Below are positions 38,414-40,587 of a stretch of DNA of 64,000 nucleotides, piece by piece. This stretch comes from Nitrospira sp. CG24C. Lineage in GTDB: Bacteria; Nitrospirota; Nitrospiria; Nitrospirales; Nitrospiraceae. The notes under the pieces are model-generated. The model saw only the letters and a list, made by a program, of their open reading frames with translations, was not told the DNA's origin and ran no database searches. A program made the position numbers and the translations under genes. Where the stretch lies: NCBI GenBank assembly GCA_002869885.2, contig NEWR02000010.1, positions 210,813-274,812 on the forward strand, read 5' to 3'. How positions within the stretch are numbered: position 1 is the stretch's first letter; each line of letters begins with the position of its first letter.

Positions 38414-38714
38414 GCTAGAAGAGGGGACTGGCTCAGGCTGAGAAGGGGGGAAGGCTGAAGGGGTTAAGGCTGAAGTGCGAAGCGGGAAAGGTGGGATCCG
38501 ATAGTTCGAAGTTCTCGGTTCGACGTTCCGAACATGTCAGTCCTTAGCCCTCAGGCCACCTCATCCTCCCGCTTTTCTCGCACGTCACACAAGTTCCGCG
38601 CGAATAACATTTCACGAACAACGAGGATGGGCTAGGACGGCTCTCAGATTGTCGTCGAGCTTCACTGGGTGAAGGGAGACAGGCTTTGACCAATGGAAGT
38701 TATGCGTTTCATCA

Positions 38715-38987
38715 TCACGGGAGTCGGTCAACGTCAAGAAGCTTGATGACTCTATCTGTTTCGTCAATTGAAAAAACTATGGTCAAGGGTGGGAAGCACG
38801 CAATGGTTAACGCTCGCAGCCTGGTTCCAAAGACCTCCTCACACTCATATGGATTACGGGCGATGTCCTCGTCAAATGTTCGTTGAATGTCATCTCTGAG
38901 TCTAGGGTCGCGAACTAAACGAGCGAACTTTGCCGTATAGTGCGCCTCTTCAATAATGCTGAACCTTGGATTATCCTGCCAATCCAT
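38715..38987 (-). CDS. Candidate toxin of a Panacea toxin-antitoxin pair
   Basis: This protein of about 90 residues is encoded just after, and overlapping, the Panacea antitoxin gene (17 bp with ATG 38987; a TTG start at 39011 is an alternative). The C-terminal half (LTIACFPPLTIVFSIDETDR, then VIKLLDVDRL) has the strand pattern and order of RelE/ParE-type fold proteins. No known active-site set was confirmed. The genetic arrangement, antitoxin first, fits Panacea systems. Confidence 0.7.
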   Translation of the reverse strand: MDWQDNPRFSIIEEAHYTAKFARLVRDPRLRDDIQRTFDEDIARNPYECEEVFGTRLRALTIACFPPLTIVFSIDETDRVIKLLDVDRLP

Positions 38988-39558
38988 GCCGTGCCGCCAC
39001 TTTTCTCCCAAATTCTACTTGCTCTTCAGTAAGCGGCGATTTGGAAAGCCAGGCCGTTCTATAGTGGATTGTTTCTCCTAGTTTTGTTAGTCGCCATCCG
39101 AATTCCTTATGTGATCTCTCGCTTAACTCTGAACCGGTAAGCTCCCAGAATTCTTCAATGATGCGGTCAACAAGTTCCCTCTCTTGTTTGGAAAATACAG
39201 GATACGGTTTTCTTTTTGGCACGATTAAATGGATTGGATCTCCCACCACGGATGGCTTGTATACCATATCTATAGCACCGTCACGCCTTAATCTTGCTTG
39301 GGCTGGTAAGCCCTTTCGGGGCGCCGGCCCTTCTTGAAGATGTTGATATTCAGCCCCGGTGATGGCTCGACCTAGAAGCCGATACGCCGAAAAGTCAGCA
39401 TAATAGAGAAGCTTGTTCAGCTTGACTGCCCCACATCGCGGATCAGTCTTACTCTTCTGCGCGATGTAGAGAATCAACTCTCGAAGCTTCTCTTCGCTAT
39501 AGACGTTTTTCGAAAGTGTAGGCACGGGATCCCCCTTTTGGTAAACCGTAACCTCCAT
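38971..39558 (-). CDS. Panacea-domain antitoxin (SocA/DUF4065-like)
   Basis: This protein of about 195 residues carries the family core VKLNKLLYYADFSAYRLLGR, ITGAEYQHLQEGPAPR and later FSKQERELVDRIIEEFWELT, which is the Panacea (DUF4065) domain. Panacea proteins are known antitoxins that neutralise diverse, unrelated toxins encoded next to them. ATG 39558 is used; GTG at 39525 with GGGGGA before it is the other candidate. The downstream toxin overlaps its end. Confidence 0.85.
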   Translation of the reverse strand: MEVTVYQKGDPVPTLSKNVYSEEKLRELILYIAQKSKTDPRCGAVKLNKLLYYADFSAYRLLGRAITGAEYQHLQEGPAPRKGLPAQARLRRDGAIDMVYKPSVVGDPIHLIVPKRKPYPVFSKQERELVDRIIEEFWELTGSELSERSHKEFGWRLTKLGETIHYRTAWLSKSPLTEEQVEFGRKVAARHGLAG

Positions 39559-39599: not shown

Positions 39600-39995
39600 G
39601 AAAATGATGGGTTTGTAAAGCGTCTCATCCTCCGGTGAAGGCCCAAGGCTGAGGCGGGTAAGGCGGGATAGGAAGTTCGAAGCTCTGGGTTCGAGGCTCC
39701 GAATACGTCGAACCTCGAACTCTCCCCCGTCCCGCATTTCGTGCGAGTCCCGCTTGCCCGCGCGAACATCGAGGAACGGCAGGGAACTGGCTCCGGGGGA
39801 GAAGGTGGGGGAAGGCTGAAGGGATGCAGGCTGAAGGTTGACCCTCGATGAAGTCATGGAGATCCATCGCGACCAGATCGAGGCCGGGGACTGGCTCCGG
39901 CTAAGAAGGGGGACAGTCCCGGTGCGGGACAGTCCCCGCCGGTGCCTGTCCCCGGTTCCCTCGGACGAGAATCAGCGGCCTGGCAGAGGGATGGG
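39600..39995. other. Intergenic repeat-rich region between two toxin-antitoxin loci
   Basis: About 400 bp without a gene. It has inverted words GGTTCGAGGCTCCG and CGAACCTCGAAC near 39690-39720, GGCTGAAGG words near 39825-39840 and a GGGGACTGGCTCCGG / GGGACAGTCCC palindrome at 39888-39955. Confidence 0.5.
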
Positions 39996-40304
39996 TTAGG
40001 ATGTTGATCTGATTCGCTTGAGTGAGGCTTGGTAGACGGCAAGATCCTCGCGTTTCCCGATCGCCACTACTTCCACAATCACTTCCTGGTCAATAATGCG
40101 GTAGACGATTCTGACCCCCTTCTTCGCCGTGTAGAGCTTGTAATAGCCCGTGAGGTCGAGACCCGCCCGATTTCCCAAGTGCTCGCCGAGAAGGGGAGAC
40201 GTTTCGAGCTTCTTAAGTTGCTTGGCGACCGGTTTTTTCAGGGAGCCATCGAGGTGTCGAAAGTCGTCAGCAGCTTCCGCCGTGAGGGTGACCCTATATG
40301 GCAA
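39996..40304 (-). CDS. RelE/ParE-family toxin
   Basis: This 102-residue protein with the RelE pattern begins MPYRVTLTAEAADDFRHLDG, followed by KKLETSPLLGEHL and the core GYYKLYTAKKGVRIVYRIID. RelE toxins cleave mRNA in the ribosome. It uses a TTG start at 40304, preceded by AAGGA; the gene overlaps the end of its antitoxin by 11 bp. This is the classical antitoxin-toxin order. Confidence 0.9.
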   Translation of the reverse strand: MPYRVTLTAEAADDFRHLDGSLKKPVAKQLKKLETSPLLGEHLGNRAGLDLTGYYKLYTAKKGVRIVYRIIDQEVIVEVVAIGKREDLAVYQASLKRIRSTS

Positions 40305-40587
40305 GGCGTTGTTCCTTCAAGAAGGCGTCGAGGCTGATGGCGTTGCGATGTTTCTTGCCCTTCCGTTCCTGCACGAGACGATAGATCTCAAGATGTTCCA
40401 GAATGGCGAGGGCCTCCGCCATTGCTTCGTAGTCCTCAATGGGGAGGAGAATCGCCTCCAGGTGGTTGTTCTTGACGACTGCCACACGGCGGCGGCGTTT
40501 ACCGCTTAGATCAGCCAGTACCTGTCCGAAGGAACGCGCCACTCGTGAAGCGCTGAGTATTTCATCTTTCTCATATGCCACGGCCAT
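40294..40587 (-). CDS. RelB/Phd-YefM-like antitoxin
   Basis: This protein of about 97 residues begins MAVAYEKDEILSASRVARSF and contains VAVVKNNHLEAILLPIEDYE, the Phd/YefM-like DNA-binding and dimerisation pattern. A helical basic C-terminus follows, which would wrap the toxin. ATG 40587 is used, with an upstream in-frame option at 40599. It overlaps the relE-like toxin. Confidence 0.88.
   Translation of the reverse strand: MAVAYEKDEILSASRVARSFGQVLADLSGKRRRRVAVVKNNHLEAILLPIEDYEAMAEALAILEHLEIYRLVQERKGKKHRNAISLDAFLKEQRLAI

Follow-up and report, generated by a model that had tools for sequence, protein, structure and literature searches.

A Panacea antitoxin and an overlapping RelE/ParE-fold toxin candidate in Nitrospira sp. 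CG24C: a separate branch within a known type of pair

Introduction

Does the small gene that overlaps a Panacea gene in Nitrospira sp. CG24C encode a toxin, and what would such a toxin act on? RelE and ParE toxins have a common fold and different targets, and what determines the target is an open question. The locus lies in a stretch of 64,000 nucleotides (contig NEWR02000010.1, hereafter the window) of a genome of 3.0 Mb, whose near relatives include Nitrospira sp. CG24E. An initial annotation of the window proposed a Panacea antitoxin with an overlapping, possibly new toxin, which resembles RelE/ParE only loosely, in its C-terminal half, and whose target is open. We propose that the two genes are probably a type II toxin-antitoxin module, in which a RelE/ParE-fold protein is the toxin candidate.

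Results

Gene layout

The coordinates of both open reading frames were checked and confirmed on the minus strand:

38971..39558, minus strand: Panacea antitoxin gene, panA-like; 195 aa, with Panacea as the sole recognised domain
38715..38987, minus strand: RelE/ParE-fold toxin candidate; 90 codons, 90 aa
38971..38987, minus strand: overlap of the antitoxin end and the toxin start, 17 nt

The two small genes are thus adjacent, co-oriented and, as described below, co-inherited, as in type II modules. An overlap of the same length is found in two relatives (L006 and L012), and it suggests translational coupling. When the region upstream of panA was scanned for promoters and terminators, no clear site emerged.

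Some features of the surroundings may be recorded here. Upstream of the Panacea gene, at a distance of 0.4 kb, there is a second toxin-antitoxin pair (window 39996-40587, minus strand), which consists of a Phd/YefM-like antitoxin (E = 1.4e-5) and a basic RelE/ParE toxin (E = 1.7e-7). On both sides of the Panacea module there are related repeat stretches (window 38423-38538 and 39640-39836); parts of the stretch 39630-39840 are short dispersed repeats with about 40 copies in the genome.

The Panacea antitoxin

The upstream protein carries a Panacea (SocA/DUF4065) domain (PF13274, E = 4.8e-17), scoring 63.3 bits against the Pfam cut-off of 25.7, and is the only PF13274 protein of the genome. Its AlphaFold2 model is confident (pLDDT 92.5), with residues 1-6 of the long form disordered and with helices 166-170 and 178-190 placed C-terminal to the Panacea core. 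A likelier start than that of the 195-aa form may be the GTG at 39525-39523; it would give 184 aa, close to the 181 aa of the relative at L009, whose antitoxin starts at the equivalent of residue 12-14, and a GGGGG ends 5 nt upstream of it. Compared with the PDB, the model has no confident match and no solved template, the best hit being a chain of a DarTG complex (E = 0.015, TM 0.38). Matches of the antitoxin to RecA were dismissed, because no single stretch passes by itself.

A small protein under purifying selection and its family

The downstream protein has a single Pfam match, to ParE (PF05016, E = 0.057), which at 14.4 bits stays below the gathering cut-off of 23, so that membership in ParE is not reached by score; only 4 of its 46 relatives match PF05016 at E < 0.1. 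The NCBIfam scan of the single sequence gave nothing relevant, and the candidate accordingly belongs to a branch of the BECR fold without a curated Pfam or NCBIfam model. One reading of such a result, for which the missing match above threshold in curated libraries would speak, is that of a chance open reading frame beside the Panacea gene. The conservation tests refute it, and what probability it retains is negligible. Relative to its 88%-identical relative in the genus genome G007, the gene is under purifying selection (dN/dS 0.12, with dN 0.078 and dS 0.66), and the window's toxin reaches 29.9 bits with a family profile from which it had been left out, while the best of 2000 shuffles reaches 11.1. 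The split-half test and the confident fold, both given below, also stand against chance, and the proposal of a real 90-residue partner is thereby borne out.

Best kept within the family are Pro66, Tyr/Phe72, Leu42 and Pro46, together with a basic position 44 and two acidic positions, 32-33. Sequence searches of plasmids and phages with the toxin alone found no relatives, nor did a search of plasmids with a Mesorhizobium query. The one match on a viral contig (L007) was rejected, as it is a 40-residue stretch inside a longer unrelated gene.

Co-conservation of the two genes

Among 32 genomes of the genus, relatives of the toxin and of the antitoxin occur in the same three. In G007 (L003, C46, 1302-1920, near the contig start), the toxin gene is intact, and the antitoxin lacks its first 75 residues, with unrelated DNA in their place; this is either a natural test of the neutralising half or an assembly join. 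With a potent toxin, an intact toxin gene beside a broken antitoxin gene would be unexpected, unless the 120 residues that are left are enough or the toxin is silent. In G019 (L006, C16), the toxin gene has a frameshift near codon 55 (about 890-910), beside an intact antitoxin gene with 78% identity.

On a larger scale, we scanned the genome_contigs collection with a Panacea alignment and obtained 80 loci, which are spread over more than a dozen phyla. Phylum-wide, a small open reading frame nearly always follows within about 20 nt of the Panacea frame. An iterated profile search places a member of the toxin family directly downstream in 64 of the 80 loci, always on the same strand (64/64), and the homology begins a median of 16 nt from the Panacea stop. 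Some of these 64 members are cut short or broken; L039, L045, L046 and L097 are among the relatives in which the Panacea gene is kept and the toxin frame shortened. With half of the loci as seed, the split-half test recovers 30-34 of the 40 held-out loci in the downstream slot and none outside it, among about 2400 reading-frame fragments. Furthermore, the distance matrices of toxin and antitoxin correlate at r = 0.62 (maximum of 2000 permutations: 0.16), a mirror-tree value to which related hosts contribute, though the loci span many phyla. Charge complementarity of the partners reaches only r = -0.21 across pairs and is not used as evidence. The strong co-conservation, together with the PF13274 match and the gene order, supports the proposed Panacea antitoxin with an overlapping toxin; a toxin not co-conserved with its antitoxin would have spoken against it.

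Within the same phylum, Panacea proteins of 260-320 aa also occur, followed by a different, basic family of 121-137 aa with a pI of about 9.5 (L013, L015-L024, L027, L030, L033, L034, L036 and L037). In a profile comparison, this family matches HigB-2 weakly (E = 9e-4), and it has no Pfam match above threshold.

Predicted fold of the toxin candidate

An AlphaFold2 model based on 46 relatives is confident (pLDDT 91.5) and has the topology b-a-a-b-b-b. The topology, Foldseek and VIA all place the predicted model in the BECR fold. The top PDB matches in Foldseek (E from 9e-5) belong without exception to the RelE/ParE superfamily (HigB2, RelE, RelE1/RelE2, ParE2, PfiAT and YoeB), and VIA yields Z scores of 12.6 for RelE2 of M. 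tuberculosis, 12.3 for RelE1 and 12.0 for the PfiAT complex, with a best match of 1.5 A over 78 residues. The family profile independently points in the same direction when compared with the PDB: YoeB ranks first (E = 0.009), followed by RelE2 (Rv2866 RelE) and, as the next toxin in rank, HigB-2, each of them individually weak, and the matches to YoeB and RelE cover the full length. The 46-member alignment was needed for these profile matches; a nine-member alignment (A3) had given chance matches only (DJ-1).

According to the model, then, the 90-aa protein adopts the known RelE/ParE (BECR) fold from end to end. The resemblance to RelE/ParE noted initially is confirmed, but it extends across the entire protein (model residues 7-90) instead of the C-terminal half alone. 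What was called a possibly new toxin is not new in its fold, and RelE/ParE partners of Panacea had already been predicted; what does stand is the branch, for which there is no Pfam or NCBIfam model and which is devoid of canonical RNase residues. For the same two reasons, the initial view that the target is open remains appropriate.

Active-site columns and charge

In an alignment that is weak (E = 0.009) and may be off by 1-2 residues, column 69, which corresponds to YoeB R65 and RelE R61, is Thr69 in this toxin and Arg in 8 of 46 members. With the same uncertainty of 1-2 residues, the columns matching YoeB H83/Y84 are unconserved (Leu89/Pro90 here), columns 87-90 have no common His, Arg or Tyr, and the combination typical of RelE/YoeB mRNases, a conserved catalytic Arg with a C-terminal His/Arg-Tyr, is not found. 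The family is predominantly acidic (85% of members, median pI 5.2); a RelE-like toxin 1 kb away has a pI of 9.7.

Discussion

Proposed module and alternative readings

The most likely interpretation is a type II toxin-antitoxin module whose toxin is ParE-like or non-canonical. The upstream gene would encode an antitoxin with Panacea as its only recognised domain and the overlapping downstream gene a small RelE/ParE-fold toxin, both presumably translated from one message. We infer direct neutralisation, in which the Panacea protein would bind the toxin and keep it inactive, because the antitoxin has no other recognised domain and because stand-alone Panacea proteins are reported to neutralise directly (PMC10440598; precedents also in PMC8832971). 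When the antitoxin is lost, or when a trigger such as phage infection is sensed, the toxin would halt growth; a role of Panacea as trigger sensor was proposed in PMC10440598.

As for the activity of the toxin, the fold matches RelE, YoeB and HigB2, and BECR-fold families are mostly mRNases (PMC11980606). A canonical ribosome-dependent mRNase of the RelE/YoeB type is nevertheless disfavoured, since the catalytic columns are unconserved and the family is acidic; it would require relocated catalytic residues, and we consider it improbable. This leaves a protein target as for ParE, or a non-canonical RNase as for RelE1/RelS. Because the branch is acidic and lacks the RelE/YoeB catalytic residues, we think a ParE-like binder likelier than the canonical mRNase, and we tentatively favour, at somewhat less than even chances, a protein target, for instance gyrase or a different factor of replication or translation. 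The nearest solved structures are RelE2 and RelE1 of M. tuberculosis, and the site at which RelE1 and RelS cut is the anti-Shine-Dalgarno region instead of mRNA (PMC12620021, PMC13284704). Like the M. tuberculosis toxins RelE1 and RelS, which trim the 3' end of 16S rRNA, the toxin could be a RelE-superfamily RNase of a non-canonical type, which appears rather unlikely: RelE1 needs R60, R65, R85 and Y89 (PMC12620021), whereas no comparable conserved basic or Tyr columns stand out here, and the family is mostly acidic. A more speculative proposal, which we hold to be unlikely, is a widespread acidic and catalytically empty RelE/ParE-fold branch, paired one-to-one with Panacea, whose protein target is neither gyrase nor the ribosomal A site and for which Panacea would be inhibitor and trigger sensor at once.

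The small protein might also be no toxin at all; in a regulatory or defence unit, it could serve the Panacea protein as co-factor or sensor partner. Its acidic character, the missing conserved catalytic site and the intact small gene beside the broken Panacea gene of G007 are consistent with such a role. Yet the fold is of a toxin type, and the two genes are arranged, overlap and are inherited one-to-one as is typical of toxin-antitoxin modules; the several relatives, such as the four loci named above, that keep Panacea though the toxin frame is shortened likewise speak against a co-factor, which we judge quite unlikely. A caution for the proposed module is that Kurata et al. found 8 of 25 tested PanT candidates to be non-toxic in E. 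coli (PMC8832971).

Comparison with known systems

The locus resembles the PanAT modules (Kurata 2022, Ernits 2023) in having a Panacea antitoxin and a small adjacent toxin gene. ParE is among the conserved-domain matches of predicted Panacea toxins (PMC8832971), and RelE/ParE is among the common folds of the Panacea toxin network (PMC10440598). Panacea toxins described as validated in the text of these two papers comprise membrane, toxSAS, Fic/Doc, MazF-like, MqsR, nucleotide cyclase and FtsL-like toxins; the main text of both contains no validated Panacea pair with a RelE/ParE toxin of this branch, and the supplementary lists may contain the cluster. MqsR is RelE-like and validated with Panacea, but it is neutralised by a zinc-binding domain, and no domain besides Panacea is recognised in the present antitoxin. 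SocAB of Caulobacter is similar in that the antitoxin SocA has a Panacea domain (PMC8832971); it differs in that SocA acts as adaptor to ClpXP for the replication toxin SocB.

On the side of the toxin, the ParE family (PF05016) shares the fold and the absence of RNase residues, whereas the window's toxin scores below its gathering cut-off and is partnered by Panacea instead of a ParD-type antitoxin. In structure, the protein matches RelE, YoeB, HigB2 and RelE1/RelE2 of M. tuberculosis best, with Z 10-12.6 across about 80 residues, but here the catalytic Arg/His/Tyr columns are unconserved, the protein is acidic and sequence identity is 8-20%. For the BECR fold, 13 Pfam families are listed in PMC11980606, in whose text the terms Panacea, PanA, SocA and DUF4065 do not occur; the present toxin branch would be a family beyond these 13. 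The pair is a branch of its own within a known type, as the pairing of Panacea with a RelE/ParE-type toxin is already predicted in the literature. A multi-phylum branch without RNase residues, held by Panacea with no added neutralising domain seen, would show whether Panacea alone blocks the RelE/ParE fold.
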